From: Clostridia bacterium
GTDB taxonomy: Bacteria > Bacillota > Clostridia > Caldicoprobacterales > Caldicoprobacteraceae
Length of the DNA stretch: 64,000 nt
Direction: 5' to 3'
NCBI GenBank assembly: GCA_017577715.1
Contig: PKRC01000004.1
Coordinates: 1 to 64,000, forward strand
The notes under the pieces are model-generated. The model made no database searches and was not told where the DNA came from. It saw only the letters and a list, made by a program, of their open reading frames with translations. How positions within the stretch are numbered: the first letter of the stretch is position 1; each line of letters opens with the position of its first letter. Made by a program: the position numbers and the translations under genes. This document shows, one piece after another, positions 2,291 through 63,752 of this stretch.

Positions 2291-3733
2291 ATGGATATAA
2301 ACGAGGCGCCATTGGTCAAAACGCTTGTAGAGTATACAAACGAGGGTATCCTTCGATTTCATATGCCAGGACACAAGGGTGGCAAAGCTTTCCCAGAGGC
2401 ATTTTTATATAATCCGGCGGCTTTGGATGTAACCGAGATCCCCGGCATGGACAATCTCTACTGCCCTACTGGGGTGATCGCTCAGGCTCAAATGTTGGCA
2501 GCCAAAGCCTTTGGCGCGCGCCATACTTTTTTCATGGTTAACGGCTCAACAGTAGGGATTCAAGCCATGATAATGGCTGCCTGTAGGCCCGGTGATAAGT
2601 TGATTATTCCCAGAAACAGCCATAGGTCGGTATGGTCGGCTATGGTACTGGCTGATGTCAAGCCTGTATATGTTCAACCTCGATATGACCGGGTAAACTC
2701 TATGGCTACTCAAGTGTCGGTTCAGGATATTCAAAGAGCTTTGGATGATAACCCCGATGTTGTGGGGGTGCTGGTGGTACATCCCAATTATTACGGCATG
2801 TGCAGCCATTTGAAGCAGATAGAAAGGGTTGTTCATGATAGAGGGAAGCTGTTGCTGGTGGATGAGGCTCATGGTGCTCATTTTGTCTTTCATCCTGATT
2901 TACCCCCTTCGGCCGGAGAGCTGGGAGCCGATATATGGGTTCAAAGCGCTCATAAGACGCTACCCGCTTTGACGCAGGGGGCATATCTCCATGTAAAGGG
3001 ACCGCGGATTGATGAGAGGCGAGTAGCCCAGATTATAGCTATGTTACAGACCAGTAGCCCGTCCTATTTGATAATGGCTTCACTTGATTGGGCTCGGGCT
3101 CTGATGGAGGCAGAGGGCAGAAAGTTGATTGACAATTTGATTGAGGCGGTCCATCATGCAAAGGAGCAGCTACGAAGCCATCTAGGGCTTTTGACATTGG
3201 ACGATTATGACAGGAGTGAAGAGGTGGAGGCGCTGGACCCTACACGGCTAGTACTGGATGTGCGCCCGCTTGGGATCACTGGCTATCAAGCCGAGAAGCT
3301 ATTGAGAAGGGTTGGCGTGCAAGTTGAGATGAGCGACATACACCGCCTGGTACTCATATGTAGCGTAGCAGATGACAGGGCGGTTTTTGACGCCTTGGTT
3401 GAAAGATTGGCAAAGATGGCAGACGAGCTACCAGAACATAGGCTTGGCCCCTGTGTCGAATATAATGAGATGTCAATTTCCCAGGAAATACCGCAGCAAA
3501 TGATGTCGCCCAGGGAAGCTTTTTATAGTATAATAGAAAACATACCTCTAAGAGAAAGCGTAGGCAGAATATGCGCAGGGGTCATAGGTGCTTATCCTCC
3601 GGGTGTACCTCGTTTTTGTCCCGGAGAGTTAATAGATAAAGAAGGAATAGATGAGCTTTTGTACATACAGCGACAAGGAGGTTCTCTTTTTGGGCTTGTA
3701 GAGGGTCATCTAGTCCCAGTGGTAAGCGAATAG
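2291..3733 (+). CDS. Orn/Lys/Arg decarboxylase family protein (YaaO-like)
   Basis: A PLP-dependent fold-type I decarboxylase of 480 residues. The N-terminal FHMPGHKGG motif (about residues 23-31), the aspartate motif VDEAHGAHF and the PLP lysine in SAHKTLPALTQGAYL are all visible. A C-terminal domain (about 380-480) contains YPPGVPRFCPGE, typical of the short Clostridia/Bacillus form. The substrate (arginine, lysine or ornithine) cannot be decided from sequence. It immediately precedes tmk, the same position as yaaO in Bacillus. GGGGAGG at 2269-2275 is rather far from the ATG, so the start is likely but not certain. Confidence 0.88.
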   Translation: MDINEAPLVKTLVEYTNEGILRFHMPGHKGGKAFPEAFLYNPAALDVTEIPGMDNLYCPTGVIAQAQMLAAKAFGARHTFFMVNGSTVGIQAMIMAACRPGDKLIIPRNSHRSVWSAMVLADVKPVYVQPRYDRVNSMATQVSVQDIQRALDDNPDVVGVLVVHPNYYGMCSHLKQIERVVHDRGKLLLVDEAHGAHFVFHPDLPPSAGELGADIWVQSAHKTLPALTQGAYLHVKGPRIDERRVAQIIAMLQTSSPSYLIMASLDWARALMEAEGRKLIDNLIEAVHHAKEQLRSHLGLLTLDDYDRSEEVEALDPTRLVLDVRPLGITGYQAEKLLRRVGVQVEMSDIHRLVLICSVADDRAVFDALVERLAKMADELPEHRLGPCVEYNEMSISQEIPQQMMSPREAFYSIIENIPLRESVGRICAGVIGAYPPGVPRFCPGELIDKEGIDELLYIQRQGGSLFGLVEGHLVPVVSE

Positions 3734-16376: not shown

Positions 16377-16389
16377 ATTTTTAAGCTTG

Positions 16390-16650
16390 CAAACGCGATG
16401 AAGAGAAGAGTAGGCAGGTAGACCCGCCTTTAGAGAGCCGGGGTAGGTGAAAGCCGGCGGCGGAGTTTCCTGTTGAACATGGTCTTGGAGCGGAGCGGTC
16501 GAAATGGCGAGTAGGCCGCTACGGGAGGTCCCGTTATAGACGCAGGTGATGATGGTCACCGGTAGAGTTTTTCGCCGCGAGGCGAAAAAGAATTAGGGTG
16601 GTACCGCGGAGGATACCCCTCGCCCCTATATGGGAGTGAGGGGTTTTTTT
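16390..16650 (+). promoter_or_regulatory. T-box leader (tRNA-Met sensing) of metG
   Basis: The conserved T-box AGGGTGGTACCGCG lies at 16595-16608 and is followed by the terminator CCCCTC (16616-16621) / GAGGGG (16638-16643) with a T-run at 16644-16650. Upstream, stem I has the usual gcgatgaagagaagagta segment near 16395-16412. The candidate specifier codon is ATG at 16479-16481, preceded by GAAC and followed by GTCTTGGAG, the arrangement seen in known T-boxes. Uncharged tRNA-Met would stabilise the antiterminator and permit metG expression. Confidence 0.93.

Positions 16651-53461: not shown

Positions 53462-53475
<14 letters not shown>
53149..53475 (+). CDS. ntpF: V-type ATP synthase subunit H (peripheral stalk)
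   Basis: 108 residues, almost wholly a charged coiled coil (AIREIRQAEQQAEEIKKQAM onward) that would pair with subunit E as a peripheral stalk. ATG 53149 is preferred because GAGGGGG at 53132-53138 is 10 bases before it; ATG 53140 is too close. It is the first gene of the operon and overlaps subunit I by 14 bases. No strong promoter was found right before it. Confidence 0.85.
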
Positions 53476-55958
<2,483 letters not shown>

Positions 55959-55969
55959 GAGTGGACACT

Positions 55970-56578
55970 ATGGATGGGATTGACAAGATCAAACAGCGTA
56001 TTCTGGAAGATGCTCGGCAGGAAGCCGAACGCATAATCAAGTCAGCTGAGGAAAAGGCAGAGGAAATTAAGAAGGCCAAAGCCGATGAGGCCGGCAGGCT
56101 AAAAAAACGTTTGACCGAGCAAAACATAGAGGCGGCTCGAGAACATAAAAGAAGGATGCTGGTATCGGCTCAGCTGGAGATGAAGAAGAAGGTGCTGGCC
56201 GTCAAACGGGACATGATAGAGGCCGTATTTGCAGGGGTTATTGAGAGGATAAGCCGCATGCCAGATGATCAATACAGGGAAGTTATCGCTTCCATGCTTT
56301 TGAATGCTCCTCTTCAGGGAGATGAAGAGGTGTTATTTTCGGTTTATGATGAGCACCGCCTGGATCAGGATTTCCTGGATTACATTAATGAGCAATTGAA
56401 AAAACAGGGGCGTAACGGACGGCTGCGCCTCTCGCCTGATAGAGGGCAGTTTAAGGCCGGCTTTATCCTTCGGGGCCATAAGGTTGAGATAAATTGCTCT
56501 TTTGAAGCAATTGTGAGGGCATTGCGAGCTGAGATGGAATCTCAAGTAGCCGAGATGCTGTTTGGTGAGCTTTCTTAA
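55970..56578 (+). CDS. ntpE: V-type ATP synthase subunit E
   Basis: 202 residues. N-terminal coiled coil (KIKQRILEDARQEAERIIKS on) and a C-terminal alpha/beta domain (GFILRGHKVEINCSFEAIVR). It forms the peripheral stalk with subunit H. ATG 55970 is preferred (TAGGAG eight bases before) over GTG 55961. Confidence 0.92.
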   Translation: MDGIDKIKQRILEDARQEAERIIKSAEEKAEEIKKAKADEAGRLKKRLTEQNIEAAREHKRRMLVSAQLEMKKKVLAVKRDMIEAVFAGVIERISRMPDDQYREVIASMLLNAPLQGDEEVLFSVYDEHRLDQDFLDYINEQLKKQGRNGRLRLSPDRGQFKAGFILRGHKVEINCSFEAIVRALRAEMESQVAEMLFGELS

Positions 56579-56657
56579 ATTTGCCTTGTTAAGCCTATAA
56601 AGTTTTTGGAGTAAGAAGCATATTGATTGACCTGTTGCGGGCAGTAGGAAGGATGAT

Positions 56658-57665
56658 ATGATGCCTCAACCCAGTTATGAATATGGAGTGGCCAGAGTCA
56701 GAGTTTTAGAGACCAAACTGCTTACCCGGGAGCGCATTGAACGGATGGCTGATGCCCCATCCGCCGAGGAAGCGCTCAAAGTTCTGTCGGAGACCAGCTA
56801 TGCCCCTTTGGTTGCAGAGCTGGTTTCTCCCTATGAATATGATGAGCTGCTTTCCAAAGAGATGAGTAGGGTACGTACCTTTATAGATGAGATTTCGCCG
56901 GATCCGGCCATTACGGACTTATTTTTCTTAAAATATGACTTTCATAATCTCAAGGTTTTATTGAAGTACAGATATTTAGGTGGCCAAGATGAGGGGCTGC
57001 CCTTGGTTCAAATAGGTACCATTCCGGTGGAAATATTAAGAAAGGGTGTGGATGATCCCGAAAGTGGCCTGCTTCCACCTTTTATGGTCAATGCAGTAAG
57101 GAGAGTGGACCAGGCCTGTGCTTTGAAGATTGATCCCCAAAAGATCGATATACTTTTGGATCTAGCCATGTACGACCATATATTTGAGGTGTGTCGCAGG
57201 AAAAGGAACGGGTTTGCTCTTGGTTATTTTCAGATGCAGGTTGACCTTTTAAACCTCCGTTCGCTTTTGCGGGCAAAGAGACTGGGGCAGGGGTTTGACT
57301 TTTTGAAGGAGATGCTCATCCCGCACGGCAGCTTAAATGTATCTTTTTATAGCCGTGCCATGGAGCAACCTTATGAACAGTTGATCAAAGAGGCGGAATC
57401 CACTCCTTACGGTAAGGTGATGGCCGAGGCCGTGCAGGATTTTCTGCGCACCGGTACTCTGACCGCTTTTGAAAGGCTGATGGATGACTTCCTGCTGAAT
57501 TACGTCAAGGCCTTAAGATATAATCCTTTTGGGATAGAAGCCATTGTGGGCTATCTATTGGCCAAGGAAAACGAAATTAAGCTAATACGCATAATCATGG
57601 TGGGCAAGATAAACAACCTGCCTGCTGAAAAAATCCGTGAAAGGCTTCGTGATGTGTATGTATAA
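56658..57665 (+). CDS. ntpC: V-type ATP synthase subunit C (d-type, AhaC)
   Basis: 335 residues. The YEYGVARVRVLETKLLT start and the all-helical pattern with conserved DLFFLKYDFHNLK (about 95-107) and FGIEAIVGYLLAKENEIKLIRIIMVGK at the C terminus are those of the V/A-ATPase C subunit, which couples rotor shaft and ring. ATG 56661 is nearly as good a start. It overlaps subunit F. Confidence 0.93.
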   Translation: MMPQPSYEYGVARVRVLETKLLTRERIERMADAPSAEEALKVLSETSYAPLVAELVSPYEYDELLSKEMSRVRTFIDEISPDPAITDLFFLKYDFHNLKVLLKYRYLGGQDEGLPLVQIGTIPVEILRKGVDDPESGLLPPFMVNAVRRVDQACALKIDPQKIDILLDLAMYDHIFEVCRRKRNGFALGYFQMQVDLLNLRSLLRAKRLGQGFDFLKEMLIPHGSLNVSFYSRAMEQPYEQLIKEAESTPYGKVMAEAVQDFLRTGTLTAFERLMDDFLLNYVKALRYNPFGIEAIVGYLLAKENEIKLIRIIMVGKINNLPAEKIRERLRDVYV

Positions 57666-57981
57666 GATGGGCGTAATTGGCGACAAAGATTCGATATTGG
57701 GGTTTAAAGCTTTGGGCCTGTCGGTGTTTCCGGTTACGCAGCCTGAACAGGCTGCTAGGCTCATCCACAAGCTGGCAAAAGAGAATTATGTGATTTTGTT
57801 TGTCACAGAATCGCTGGCACAGGATATCAAGGAGACCATCGATAGATACGGCTCTCAGCCTTTTCCCATTATTACCTTGATTCCCAACAATGCTGGAAGC
57901 ATGGGATTGGGAATGGAAGGGATCAAATCCAACGTGGAAAAGGCGGTAGGAGTGGACATTTTATTTGGAGAGCGAGGGTAG
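57652..57981 (+). CDS. ntpG: V-type ATP synthase subunit F
   Basis: About 110 residues. MGVIGDKDSILGFKALGLSV is the family start; the tail has PIITLIPN. It binds subunit D in the central shaft. Starts at 57652, 57658 and 57667 are possible; GAAAGG at 57639-57644 favours 57652, while homologues start MYKxGVIGD, matching 57658. Either way it overlaps subunit C, implying coupled translation. Confidence 0.92.
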   Translation: MCMYKMGVIGDKDSILGFKALGLSVFPVTQPEQAARLIHKLAKENYVILFVTESLAQDIKETIDRYGSQPFPIITLIPNNAGSMGLGMEGIKSNVEKAVGVDILFGERG

Positions 57982-57988
57982 GTGAGCT

Positions 57989-59761
57989 ATGCAGGGTAGG
58001 ATAGTAAAGGTATCGGGACCGCTTGTAGTAGCCGAAGGGATGGCCGATGCCAAGATGTTCGACGTGGTGCGGGTAAGCGATAAGCGGCTTATCGGCGAGA
58101 TAATAGAGCTAAGAGGGGATAAGGCTTCCATTCAGGTATATGAGGAGACTGCGGGATTAGGTCCGGGAGAGCCCGTGTATTCCACCGGCGAGCCTTTAAG
58201 CGTGGAGCTGGGGCCTGGGCTTATTGGCTCAATATTTGACGGTATACAGCGACCCTTAACCCTTATTCGCGAGAAGGTGGGCGATCGCATTGCAAGGGGG
58301 ATTGAAGTTCCTGCCTTGGATCGGGAGCGCAAGTGGGAGTTTATGCCCCGCGTCAAGCCGGGGGATCAGGTTGAGCCCGGCGATATAATAGGTGTGGTCC
58401 AGGAGACTTCCATAGTGGAGCACCGTATTATGGTGCCCCAGGGGATAGAAGGGGTTATAGAGTGGATTCATGAGGGAATGGCTACAATTGTAGAGCCGGT
58501 GGCCAGGGTAAAGATGCCCAATGGCGCTCTTGTGGACATTACCATGATGCAGAAGACCCCTGTCCGCGTGGGGAGAAAATACAAGCAAAAACTTCCTCCC
58601 ATTGTTCCGCTTATAACGGGCCAGCGAATCATTGATACCTTCTTCCCGGTAGCAAAGGGAGGAGTGGCTGCCGTACCCGGGCCCTTTGGCAGTGGCAAGA
58701 CGGTGGTGCAGCACCAGTTGGCAAAGTGGGCCGATGCCGACATCATAGTATATGTGGGATGTGGCGAGCGCGGTAACGAGATGACCGATGTTCTTATGGA
58801 GTTTCCTCAGCTAAAGGATCCAAAGACCGGCGAGCCCCTTATGAAGCGGACGGTGCTTATTGCCAATACTTCCGATATGCCGGTGGCTGCCCGTGAGGCT
58901 TCCATATACACCGGTATAACCATTGCCGAGTACTTTAGGGATATGGGCTATAACGTGGCCATCATGGCCGACTCCACTTCAAGGTGGGCTGAAGCCCTCC
59001 GCGAGATGTCGGGCCGTCTGGAGGAAATGCCCGGCGAGGAAGGCTATCCGGCTTATTTAGGCTCCAGGCTTGCCGAATTCTACGAACGGGCTGGCCGAGT
59101 CATTTGCTTGGGTAAGGACAACCGGGAAGGCACCATAACCGCCATTGGTGCCGTTTCACCGCCTGGCGGTGACTTTTCGGAACCCGTAACCCAAGCCACA
59201 TTGCGTATAGTCAAGGTATTCTGGGGTTTGGATTCACAACTGGCATACCGCAGGCATTTTCCTGCTATAAACTGGTTGACCAGCTATTCGCTGTATCTTG
59301 ACCGGCTAAACGAGTGGTACATAAGGGAGATATCGGAGGAGTGGCCTAAGCTCAGGCAGGAGGCCATGTCCCTGTTACAGGAGGAGGCCCAGCTGGAGGA
59401 GATAGTCAGGCTGGTGGGGGTGGATGCCTTATCGGTGAAGGATAGGCTGGTGCTGGAGGCTGCCAAATCCATAAGGGAAGATTACCTGCACCAAAACGCT
59501 TTCCACGAGGTGGATACCTATACTTCCCTTATAAAGCAGTACAAGATGCTGAAGCTGATAATCGAATTCTATCATCTGGGACAAAGAGCATTGGATTCGG
59601 GAGCCGAGTTCAGCCAGGTGGTAAGCCTCCCTGTAAGGGAGCGCATAGGGCGAGCCAAGTACATTTCTGAGGACCAGTTGGAGCAGCTGGATGAGATTTT
59701 AAACGAGTTAAAGGAACAGATGTCGTCCTTGATGTCGGAGGGAGGCGTCTCTTATGCTTAA
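57989..59761 (+). CDS. ntpA: V-type ATP synthase catalytic subunit A
   Basis: 590 residues. The P-loop [11 protein letters not shown] lies near residue 230, after the family-specific non-homologous insertion (about 110-200). [10 protein letters not shown] and [20 protein letters not shown] are further ATPase motifs. It hydrolyses or makes ATP at three A/B interfaces. GGTAGGTGAG precedes the ATG. It overlaps subunit B by eight bases. Confidence 0.98.
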
Positions 59762-61139
59762 AGAGTACAGGACCATTACTGAAGTAGTTGGTCCATTGAT
59801 GCTGGTAGAACACGTGGAGGGAGCAAAATATAACGAGCTGGTGGAGATTCAACAGTCCAATGGAGAGGTTCGCAGGGGCCGTGTCCTTGAGGTGGATGGC
59901 GATAAGGCATTGGTTCAGCTCTTTGAGGGCTCTCACGGCTTGAGGATTGCCGACAGCAAGGTGCGCTTTTTGGGCAGGGGTATAGAGCTGGGCGTATCTA
60001 GGGATATGTTGGGGCGCGTATTCGATGGAATGGGGAGACCCATAGACGGAGGCCCAGAGATCATTCCCAAAAAGCGCATGGACATAAACGGAGAACCCAT
60101 CAATCCCGCTGCGCGCGACTACCCGTCGGAATTCATCCAAACCGGGATTTCGGCTATCGATGGCCTCAATACTCTGGTGCGCGGGCAAAAGCTGCCCATT
60201 TTCTCGGGGGCAGGCTTGCCTCATGCCCAGCTGGCAGCGCAGATTGCCCGGCAAGCTACAGTGCCGGGCAGCGACACCGAATTCGCCGTAGTGTTTGCGG
60301 CCATAGGCATAACCTTTGAGGAGGCCGACTTCTTCGTATCTGATTTTAGAAGGACCGGTGCCATCGAGCGGGCGGTGCTGTTCATGAATTTGGCCGATGA
60401 CCCGGCAATTGAGCGCATCTCCACACCCCGCATGGCATTGACAGCTGCCGAATATCTGGCCTTTGAAGAGGATATGCACGTACTGGTTATACTTACTGAT
60501 ATGACCAACTACGCCGAAGCCCTCAGGGAGATATCGGCCGCTCGTAAAGAGGTGCCTGGCCGCCGTGGCTATCCGGGCTACATGTATACCGACCTGGCTA
60601 CCATGTACGAGAGGGCCGGAAGGATAAAGGGCAAGAAGGGCTCTATTACTCAGATACCTATACTAACCATGCCCGAGGACGACAAGACCCATCCCATTCC
60701 CGACCTGACGGGATATATTACTGAAGGCCAGATAATATTGAGCAGGGAGCTTTACCGCAAGGGCATAAATCCACCCATTGATGTTTTGCCATCCCTGTCC
60801 CGTCTGAAGGATAAGGGCATAGGAAAGGGGAAAACCCGGGAGGACCACGCCGATACCATGAACCAGCTGTTTGCGGCCTATGCCCGTGGCAAGGAGGCCA
60901 AGGAGCTGGCGGTGGTGCTGGGCGAAGCGGCCCTTTCGGAGATGGATAAGCTATATGCCAAGTTTGCCGATGAATTTGAGAGGAGATATGTATCTCAGGG
61001 CTTTGAGACCAACCGTTCCATCGAGGAGACCCTTAATCTCGGGTGGGAATTGCTTTCCATACTGCCAAAGAGTGAGCTTAAACGAATTCGGGACGAGTAC
61101 CTCGATAAATATTTTCCCGGAGACAAAGGGGATGAATAG
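59754..61139 (+). CDS. ntpB: V-type ATP synthase subunit B
   Basis: 461 residues. It resembles A but has no P-loop: the position reads [47 protein letters not shown] carries the regulatory arginine region. It is the non-catalytic subunit alternating with A. Confidence 0.98.
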
Positions 61140-61142
61140 TTT

Positions 61143-61790
61143 ATGGCTATCATGAGGGTTAATCCCACGCGCATGGAACTTACCCGTTTGAAAACAAGGC
61201 TTCAGGTGGCAGTAAGGGGTCACAAGCTGCTCAAAGACAAGCGGGATGAGATGATGCGCAAATTTTTAGACCTGATAAAACAGAATAAGGAGTTGCGGGA
61301 GCGCGTGGAGCAAAAATTAACCCTGGCGTTTAAGGATTTTGTGATGGCGCGGGCTGTCATGTCTTCCGAAGTGCTGGAGGAGGCTATAATGTTTCCCACC
61401 CGTAGGGTGGAGATAAAACCTTCAATTGGTAATATCATGGGCGTAGCTGTTCCCGTCATTGAGTATAAGGAAGTGATCGACCAAGAGCTCTCTCCTTATC
61501 CCTATAGCTTTGCGGCCACTTCGGCCGAACTGGATGGCGCCATTGCCGCCTTTTCCGACATCCTGCCACTTATGGTGGAGTTGGCTCAGATAGAAAAGAC
61601 TTGTCAGATGCTGGCAGATGAAATTGAGAAAACCCGCCGCAGGGTAAATGCTCTGGAATACGTAATTATCCCTCAACTCCAAGAGACGATACGCTATATT
61701 ACCATGAAGCTGGATGAAAACGAGCGCGGAAATCGTACCAGGTTGATGAAGGTCAAGGATATGCTGGAGGAAAAAAATGCAAATGTATGA
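61143..61790 (+). CDS. ntpD: V-type ATP synthase subunit D
   Basis: 215 residues. NPTRMELTRLKTRLQVAVRG at the N terminus and RRRVNALEYVIIPQLQETIRYI at the C terminus pair as the long coiled coil of the central shaft. AAAGGGG lies nine bases before ATG 61143. Last gene of the V-ATPase operon. Confidence 0.96.
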   Translation: MAIMRVNPTRMELTRLKTRLQVAVRGHKLLKDKRDEMMRKFLDLIKQNKELRERVEQKLTLAFKDFVMARAVMSSEVLEEAIMFPTRRVEIKPSIGNIMGVAVPVIEYKEVIDQELSPYPYSFAATSAELDGAIAAFSDILPLMVELAQIEKTCQMLADEIEKTRRRVNALEYVIIPQLQETIRYITMKLDENERGNRTRLMKVKDMLEEKNANV

Positions 61791-61875: not shown

Positions 61876-61900
61876 CCGGTGGGTGTGTTACACCCACCGG
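61876..61900. repeat. Perfect 11-bp GC-rich hairpin at the V-ATPase operon end
   Basis: CCGGTGGGTGT (61876-61886), loop GTT, ACACCCACCGG (61890-61900). No T-run follows, so it is not a standard intrinsic terminator; it may define the 3' end of the operon mRNA. Apart from this and the elements listed below, 61791-62100 holds nothing I can support. Confidence 0.65.
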
Positions 61901-62102
61901 CTAGAATAAAGCTTGCCACAACCTCCTCTTTTTGGCATATTTCTCAACTTTGGTTATCTGCGATTTTGGAAAGTAAAAGCTTGACCAAATTCCTTCACTT
62001 TTCTTTATGTCCCTTGTATATCCTTTCTCATAAAGGGTGACCTATGTAATTTGAATGCGATAGATTATCGCGGGAAGGCAACGCATATCTACAAAAAAGT
62101 TA

Positions 62103-62131
62103 TTGATAAATTTATCTGCATATGTTACACT
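62103..62131 (+). promoter_or_regulatory. Candidate extended -10 promoter of the NCS2 leader
   Basis: TTGATA (62103-62108), 17 bp, TACACT (62126-62131) preceded by TGT. Transcription would start near 62138. Confidence 0.5.
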
Positions 62132-62140
62132 GTTTCAAGT

Positions 62141-62257
62141 GGGGATATTTTTAAGTCTGGTACAGAGATGCCGACAAGATATCCTGCAACAAGAGCATAG
62201 CATAACGTTGTGTTGAGGATAATCTTGCCTGCACTATGTGACAGACAAGATTTTTTT
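62141..62257 (+). ncRNA. Structured leader/attenuator upstream of the NCS2 permease
   Basis: Three competing pairings are visible. P1: GGATAT (62143-62148) with ATATCC (62179-62184), enclosing GTCtGG/CCGAC (62155-62175). Antiterminator: CAAGATATCC (62175-62184) with GGATAATCTTG (62217-62227; one bulged A). Terminator: AATCTTG (62221-62227) with CAAGATT (62246-62252) and seven T. P1 and the antiterminator share ATATCC; the antiterminator and terminator share AATCTTG. This is riboswitch- or protein-controlled attenuator logic. I do not recognise a known class; a purine riboswitch core is not evident and the PyrR-loop consensus is only partly resembled (CAGAGA in the loop). Confidence 0.55.
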
Positions 62258-62372
62258 ATGTAAAGGGGGATGAGTATAAGTATAGCGAGAACAGCAAATA
62301 GTTTATACGGCTTATATACCACAGTTGGGTGGTGTAAATTCACACAAATAAAGATTAAGGAGAGATGCTGTC

Positions 62373-63752
62373 ATGTCCAAAATTCAACATGCCATAGGGT
62401 ATCTTCCCGATGAACGTCCGCCGATATGGAAGCTTTTACTTTACGCGATACAACAGGTTATCGTAATGTTTCCTGCAACGGTAGCTGTAGCAATCATTAC
62501 AGGTTTTCACATCTCGACGACCATCTTTGCCAGCGGCCTTGCTACCCTCTGTTTTATTCTGGTTACAGGACGAAAGATCCCGCTTTATTATGGGTCAAGC
62601 TTTTCATATATCACTGCCGTTGCTAGCCTGATGAGCTCCCAAGCGTTGGCGGGATACACTCTCAATGAAAAGATAGCGGTAGCTCAATTTGGCATCGTCA
62701 TGTCAGGGCTTGTATCTATAGCGGCAGGGCTTATCGTCAACCGCTTTGGGAGGGATTCCCTGGAAAGGATCTTGCCGGCATCGGTTACAGGTCCTATTGC
62801 TATGGTGATCGGGCTTACGCTCGCGGGGACAGCGTTAAACGATGCGGCCTCCATTGCGATTGATACCGCAGGAACCATTGCTGTTGCGGAATCCCAGATA
62901 GCTCTTGCCAAGAACATGGCTTGGCTAGTTTCGCTCGTCACATTGATCTCAACTATCTTGTTCTCAGTATATTTGAAAGGTTTTATGGGTCAAATTCCAC
63001 TTATTCTTGGCCCAATCGTGGGCTGTATTACGGCCTTCATCATCAAACTTGTAACGGGCATTAACCTTTTTAAAGTTTTGCCTGCCACAGCCAACACTGG
63101 AATTTTTGCTCTTCCCATATTTACGCTTCCCAAACCCTCATGGATGGCGGTTGCAGCCATTATGCCCATAGCAATTGCTACCATTCCCGAATCAACGGCA
63201 CACATATACCAGCTGGACCTTTATGTAAATGATTTGGCAAACAAAAAGGGTAAGGGTAAGAGGTATGATATTGCCGACAAGCTTGGGCTTAACTTGATCG
63301 GCGACGGCATCGGCGATATAGTTGCCGGATTTATTGGAGGTCCTGCTGGCACCAACTATGGGGAAAACATAAGCGCCATGGCTATCACCAGAGTGTTTTC
63401 CACATCGGTTCTCATTGCTGCTTCCATAATAGCCATGATTATTTCCTGCTTTACACCTCTAATAAATGCCATCTATTCAATCCCCACCGCGGTAATAGGG
63501 GGCATTGAAATCTACTTGTTTGGCGCAATAGCCGTTCAAGGGGTTGCCATCATGGTTGAAAGAAAGGTGGATCTGTTTAGCGCTAGAACTATAGCGGTTA
63601 TTGCAACCATCATGATTATCGGCCTTGGAGGACAATACGCCTTTGGAGGCAACATACCCTTCTTTGGCATGGAGGTTCCAAGCGTTGCAGGGGCAGCCAT
63701 ATTCGGAATACTTCTTAACCTGGTATTGAGCATAGGGGAGAGGGAAAGATAA
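62373..63752 (+). CDS. NCS2 family uracil/xanthine permease
   Basis: 459 residues, about 12-14 membrane helices. Family features: LLYAIQQVIVMFPATVAVAII at the start, LYYGSSFSYITA (QH-like helix region) and AIMPIAIATIPESTAHIYQL, containing a conserved glutamate in the substrate site, then IGGPAGTNYGENISAMAITR. The NxG/ENxG-type motif suggests nucleobase-proton symport; uracil or xanthine cannot be told apart confidently. AAGGAGAG precedes the ATG. It is behind the attenuator-like leader. Confidence 0.93.
   Translation: MSKIQHAIGYLPDERPPIWKLLLYAIQQVIVMFPATVAVAIITGFHISTTIFASGLATLCFILVTGRKIPLYYGSSFSYITAVASLMSSQALAGYTLNEKIAVAQFGIVMSGLVSIAAGLIVNRFGRDSLERILPASVTGPIAMVIGLTLAGTALNDAASIAIDTAGTIAVAESQIALAKNMAWLVSLVTLISTILFSVYLKGFMGQIPLILGPIVGCITAFIIKLVTGINLFKVLPATANTGIFALPIFTLPKPSWMAVAAIMPIAIATIPESTAHIYQLDLYVNDLANKKGKGKRYDIADKLGLNLIGDGIGDIVAGFIGGPAGTNYGENISAMAITRVFSTSVLIAASIIAMIISCFTPLINAIYSIPTAVIGGIEIYLFGAIAVQGVAIMVERKVDLFSARTIAVIATIMIIGLGGQYAFGGNIPFFGMEVPSVAGAAIFGILLNLVLSIGERER

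Follow-up and report, generated by a model that had tools for sequence, protein, structure and literature searches.

Leader of a predicted uracil permease gene in a Caldicoprobacter relative is very likely a PyrR-dependent transcription attenuator

A PyrR-type leader upstream of a permease gene

The leader at positions 62103 to 62257 of the window (the whole 64,000-nucleotide stretch of DNA analyzed here, from a Clostridia bacterium that is a Caldicoprobacter relative) is very likely a PyrR-dependent transcription attenuator of the probable uracil permease gene that follows it. It contains three mutually exclusive helices, which are real, and they end in an intrinsic terminator. This kind of attenuator is well known; judged by its letters, the loop of the binding hairpin belongs to a slightly different subtype linked to uptake. 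The features of the region are as follows.

62103-62131, + strand: promoter-like element TTGATA-17-TACACT, its second hexamer preceded by TG (promoter scan; weak evidence)
62142-62185, + strand: anti-antiterminator, the predicted PyrR binding hairpin (RF00515 match, folding, covarying pairs in relatives)
62163-62168, + strand: hexaloop CAGAGA (PyrR loop CNGNGA) with closing pair A62162-U62169, the usual pair being C-G (letters read, loop comparison)
62175-62227, + strand: antiterminator, in which CAAGATATCC (62175-62184) plus an extension pairs with GGATAATCTTG (62217-62227) (folding, own versus permuted pairing)
62221-62257, + strand: intrinsic terminator, stem AATCTTG/CAAGATT plus inner pairs, T-run at 62251-62257 (letters, folding, relatives)
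62262-62285, + strand: block AAAGGGGGATGAGTATAAGTAT after the terminator (comparison of leaders)
62357-62362, + strand: AAGGAG, the likely ribosome-binding site for the permease (read from the sequence)
62373-63752, + strand: NCS2 family permease gene, 459 amino acids, probably a uracil permease (PF00860, NCBIfam, solved chains)

The initial annotation had proposed the order anti-antiterminator, antiterminator, and terminator and had left the class unrecognized. All segments that it quoted are present where it placed them (GGATAT at 62143 to 62148, ATATCC at 62179 to 62184, AATCTTG at 62221 to 62227, and CAAGATT at 62246 to 62252), and the order is borne out by these letters, by the folds, and by relatives. 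The class is a known one: a covariance search against Rfam, run as a permissive scan of the 551-base stretch from 61900 to 62450, matched RF00515 (PyrR binding site) over model positions 1 to 115 with 40.7 bits and an E value of 3.5e-4, which is below the gathering score of 54 bits. Most sites with this type of hairpin in related genomes fall under that score too. The anti-antiterminator is built from a lower stem (62142-62151/62176-62185), an internal bulge UAA on the 5' side (62152-62154), and an upper stem that reaches 62162/62169. The PyrR hexaloop CNGNGA sits in the TACAGAGATG loop, in line with the earlier suggestion that the hairpin enclosed by the first helix could be the protein-binding part. 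PyrR, one of the candidates named at that stage, is supported by the same match and by a pyrR gene with two further sites in the genome. Counting against the assignment, the top of the upper stem (GGUA[CAGAGA]UGCC) keeps its pairs but not the letters of the published PyrR site consensus, ARUCCAGAGAGGYU, in a part that PMC7430163 describes as crucial for binding.

When the whole genome was searched with RF00515, the leader site came third, after two sites flanking pyrR. Weaker matches in this genome (ranks 4 to 14, E = 0.16 to 7.3) were disregarded, as 9 of 14 control genomes also give matches at E ≤ 10. The window's own permease site was absent from a 61-genome RF00515 search with stricter filters and was present again in a later search. 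A match to the small RNA McaS (22.4 bits, with a gathering score of 42) was dismissed as chance. At gathering level, an Rfam scan of the whole window returned rRNA, tRNA, one T-box, and nothing else; the T-box leader lies at 16389 to 16630 and scores 122 bits.

A protein-independent riboswitch, with a nucleobase or nucleotide as its direct ligand, would follow the same regulatory logic and would suit a nucleobase transporter downstream. We give that reading next to no weight, given that the conserved letters are those of the PyrR loop and bulge, that the sole gathering-level cis-regulatory match in the window is the T-box elsewhere, and that, in a set of 30 genomes selected because a PyrR-type site precedes their permease, 29 carry one full-length PyrR (at least 216.9 bits). 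No purine riboswitch or other Rfam riboswitch matched in the leader region in the gathering-level and permissive scans, and the same hairpin type precedes pyrR in other genomes, both of which speak against the purine and unknown ligands that had been suggested initially.

Folding is consistent with a switch. The computed energies of the single elements are -15.4 kcal/mol for the anti-antiterminator hairpin, -17.5 kcal/mol for the antiterminator, and -11.7 kcal/mol for the terminator. Forced folds of 62138 to 62257 gave -35.1 kcal/mol for the hairpin plus terminator versus -34.0 kcal/mol for the antiterminator, and such near equality is what a switch requires. From 62136 to 62262, the antiterminator-type fold is best (-36.4), so that the winning fold on paper depends on the ends chosen. 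The leader is more stable than its shuffled versions, 2 of 200 of which reached so low an energy (z = -3.26). A simple terminator scan detected nothing at the leader, probably because the stem carries a mismatch and a bulge.

The promoter-like element reported at the outset is indeed present, and transcription is expected to start near 62138, but it is weak evidence because four such sites were found in the region versus 1.8 ± 1.3 in shuffles. This element and the terminator, together with the long spacer of 115 nt from the end of the T-run to the permease ATG (62373), would also fit a separate small RNA, about 120 nt long, that ends at the terminator and has no role in permease expression. 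That alternative found no support and is extremely improbable: the PyrR-type element precedes the permease gene in many genomes and pyrR in others, and its antiterminator coevolves with the lower stem, for which a simple small RNA would have no use. Within the spacer, the core AAAGGGG(G)ATGAG of the block at 62262 to 62285 is common to all six leaders examined from the genus and family of the window; 13 other leaders that were compared did not show it. In certain other genomes the ribosome-binding region of the permease resembles this block, which may be a tiny open frame or a relic.

The permease and the pyrimidine genes of the genome

The permease scores above the cut-off of PF00860 and matches the NCBIfam uracil permease and NCS2 models, both under cut-off (241 versus 477 bits for uracil permease). 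Its nearest solved chains (8omz, 3qe7, and 5xls) are all uracil permeases, and in the alignment with 8omz its PESTAH lies opposite AEHVGH and its YGEN opposite YGEN, stretches that we take to contain the uracil-binding residues of UraA. By these sequence comparisons, the protein is probably a uracil permease, which would place the leader before a gene of pyrimidine uptake, as expected of a PyrR attenuator. Its closest relatives with species names are those of Caldicoprobacter oshimai and Caldicoprobacter algeriensis (89% identity each), and the relative in assembly L125 is 92% identical. Just upstream on the same strand, positions 53462 to 61790 of the window hold what looks like a V-type ATPase operon, judged by its genes; the last of them (61143-61790), the sole one tested, encodes ATP synthase subunit D.

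A full-length pyrR lies on another contig of the same genome (L009), with an RF00515 site on each side, one at 2602 to 2718 (53.2 bits) and the other at 3287 to 3389 (67.2 bits, above the gathering score). The latter precedes pyrB and begins with a hairpin whose loop is closed by C-G. Behind pyrR are pyrB, pyrC, pyrF, carB, a pyrK-like gene, pyrD, and pyrE. NCBIfam models were matched above cut-off for PyrR, aspartate carbamoyltransferase, dihydroorotase, PyrF, the carbamoyl-phosphate synthase large subunit, dihydroorotate dehydrogenase, and PyrE, and under cut-off for the dihydroorotate dehydrogenase electron-transfer subunit. The genome's own PyrR scores up to 258 bits against solved PyrR chains.

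Proposed mechanism and comparison with known attenuators

By analogy with Bacillus subtilis, in which UMP-bound PyrR stabilizes the anti-antiterminator and causes termination according to PMC7430163, we infer UMP-PyrR-dependent termination at the window's locus. With UMP plentiful, UMP-bound PyrR would hold and stabilize the hairpin at 62142 to 62185, and the held hairpin would keep 62175 to 62184 from pairing with 62217 to 62227. The terminator at 62221 to 62257, being freed, would then form and stop transcription at about 62257, leaving the permease off. With UMP low, PyrR would leave the RNA, and the antiterminator (62175-62227) would form and block the terminator, allowing read-through and production of the permease.

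The uracil permease gene of B. subtilis is pyrP. The attenuators of the B. subtilis pyr operon, including the one before pyrP, are described in PMC7430163, and the window's leader shares with them the helix order, the CNGNGA hexaloop, the internal bulge, a PyrR in the genome, and a target in pyrimidine uptake. It differs from the attenuators described there in its A-U closing pair in place of C-G and in its setting, with the permease gene outside the pyr operon, behind the V-type-ATPase-like genes, and with 115 nt between terminator and ATG. A separate transporter gene with its own pyrR RNA is likewise found in Streptococcus pneumoniae (SP_1286, a putative uracil transporter), where uracil represses about 2-fold according to PMC10942264; the likeness lies in this arrangement.

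Conservation and covariation in relatives

A relative of the permease is present in 45 of 61 genomes, and an RF00515 match at E ≤ 0.1 is present in 43 of the 61 (the window's own genome included in both counts), many of these matches lying just before the relative of this permease. Among 80 permease loci from named records, 75 have at least 200 nt upstream, and 33 of these 75 have a PyrR-type hairpin within 450 nt upstream, versus 21 of 1,500 shuffles. We aligned 38 distinct leaders, namely, 32 of those 33 (one being a duplicate) and six from the 61-genome search; the six include the window's own leader, and five of them precede more-distant NCS2 permeases.

The upper stem is 98.4% paired across the 38 leaders, with double changes in four of its five pairs, the pattern-found rows having been preselected for at least 3/4 upper-stem pairs. 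For the whole hairpin, the covariation score and the cells paired were reached by none of 500 shuffles; the number of double-changed pairs (reached by 66 of 500) and the pair types (119 of 500) do not beat shuffles. The lower stem was out of register in some rows when columns were fixed (58% paired), and its figures come from a re-anchored alignment, in which pairs 4 to 7 are 81% paired versus 63% when permuted (0 of 2,000) and pairs 8 to 10 are 54% paired versus 43% (5 of 2,000), pairs 1 to 3 being nearly invariant and uninformative on covariation. For the antiterminator, pairing with the leader's own partner averages -10.8 kcal/mol over the 38 leaders versus -8.0 kcal/mol with permuted partners (0 of 5,000); in several single leaders, the own antiterminator is no better than a borrowed one (e.g., L081, rank 38 of 38). 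A terminator-like hairpin before a T-run occurs in 38 of 38 leaders, a count for which the best hairpin per leader was chosen, without a shuffle control.

Within the window's family, GGATAT...ATATCC...GGATAAT in the window and in G002 reads AGATAT...ATATCT...AGATAAT in G004 and G006, where the same G-to-A change in both GGATAT and GGATAAT accompanies ATATCC to ATATCT, so that the two alternative pairings change together. G001 and G003 have ATATCT...GGATAAT, with the first arm lost. Hairpin, antiterminator, and terminator are kept in relatives with coordinated changes, in keeping with what had been proposed from the window's sequence.

In two close relatives, C. oshimai and C. algeriensis, the lower stem lacks its 5' arm and the upper hairpin alone remains (-6.2 kcal/mol), so that PyrR control would not hold throughout the genus. 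By eye, an unrelated stretch replaces both the promoter and this arm (L013:1010-1260 and the same region of L014), and these two species may have lost PyrR control of the permease. In L013, a 74-amino-acid open frame without a Pfam match crosses the loop. The losses in two sister species, and the window's score under the Rfam threshold, would suit a decaying, unresponsive PyrR site that leaves partial constitutive termination. We consider such decay very unlikely for the window's leader, as all helices are intact in its genome and in G002 and as many other genomes have the A-U variant on stems that remain paired.

A loop-closing pair linked to uracil uptake

Many permease-linked sites have an A-U or other non-C-G closing pair, whereas biosynthetic sites mostly have C-G; both kinds often occur together in a genome that has a single PyrR. 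The A-U pair closes the loop in 21 of the 38 permease leaders. In a first set of loci, C-G was found in 13 of 13 sites before pyrB and in 26 of 36 before pyrR (the rest being six U-G, two A-G, one G-U, and one A-U), and A-U was found in 23 of 40 before the permease (the rest being four A-G, two U-A, two G-C, one G-U, and eight C-G); these counts include two probable chance matches (the first site of L109 and the second of L051), and the pyrR pattern used overlooked pyrR genes with DDVIYTGRT. In a second set, comprising 35 of 69 places with sites, all 18 sites before pyrR or pyrB have C-G, and eight of nine before the permease have A-U, the ninth having A-G. Eight further sites of this set without an assigned gene comprise four A-U, two G-C, one C-G, and one without the PyrR loop.

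Directly before the permease, a site was found by pattern in 34 of 74 distinct permease loci with enough upstream DNA (13 duplicates and 12 that were too short having been left out). All 27 sites without pyrR just upstream are non-C-G (20 of them A-U), and all seven with pyrR just upstream are C-G (Fisher's test, 1.9e-7, kinship ignored); a wider pyrR pattern gave the same 27 and 7. A tree of 32 of the 34 permeases requires only three changes between C-G and other pairs, each with a change of context. By the letter pattern, no site stands directly before the permease in the remaining 40 loci, 20 of which have pyrR upstream; this site finder misses some sites (e.g., L091:1321-1379, found by R1, a covariance model of the hairpin built in this analysis).

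R1 matches 55 of the 80 named loci and gives the window 58.9 bits; because the window's site and 32 of the 80 loci are among the rows used to build it, matches there are not independent evidence. In 25 places, R1 found sites 648 to 850 nt before the permease with a PyrR-like open frame between (14 A-U, four A-G, four C-G, two U-G, and one without the PyrR loop). A general rule linking A-U to permease genes that stand alone, and C-G to those in an operon with pyrR, was rejected as too broad because these distant sites are mostly non-C-G despite the pyrR between; it holds only for sites directly before the permease. Of 12 genomes selected because a site precedes a pyrR-permease pair, RF00515 matched in 10, with one match over cut-off; nine of the 10 are A-U hairpins followed by pyrR, and the remaining one is U-G and was not seen to be followed by pyrR. 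R1 sites before pyrR-permease pairs also occur in L140 and L142 (43.4 and 41.2 bits), in whose genomes RF00515 has no match at E ≤ 0.05. Indirect evidence of this kind, of which the A-U hairpin before pyrR itself is the best, suggests that PyrR reads the A-U subtype.

A second PyrR serving the variant sites was considered and rejected: none of comparable score was found in the 30 genomes searched, and the second matches, which are presumably other phosphoribosyltransferases, are 23 to 27% identical and score at most 34.9 bits. One genome (G061, the record of L077) has an A-U site before the permease and no convincing PyrR (best match, 26.8 bits).

We tentatively offer a broader idea, which we think possible though rather doubtful, that Firmicutes with a single PyrR use a C-G loop for biosynthetic operons and a non-C-G loop, mostly A-U, for uracil uptake, so that synthesis and uptake would shut at different UMP levels; the closing pair would then be a tuning letter, switched each time the permease gene enters or exits the pyrR operon. 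A PyrR loop subtype linked to its target, and which the Rfam threshold tends to leave out, would add to a textbook regulator, found here in a new place, and would make it easy to ask whether a single base pair sets the order in which an RNA-binding protein serves its targets. Among the literature matches listed, with subscription journals mostly outside, no paper is devoted to the loop subtype by its title or the start of its abstract; we do not claim that it is unpublished. In L028, two PyrR-type hairpins stand in tandem before the permease, the first closed by C-G and the second by A-U.
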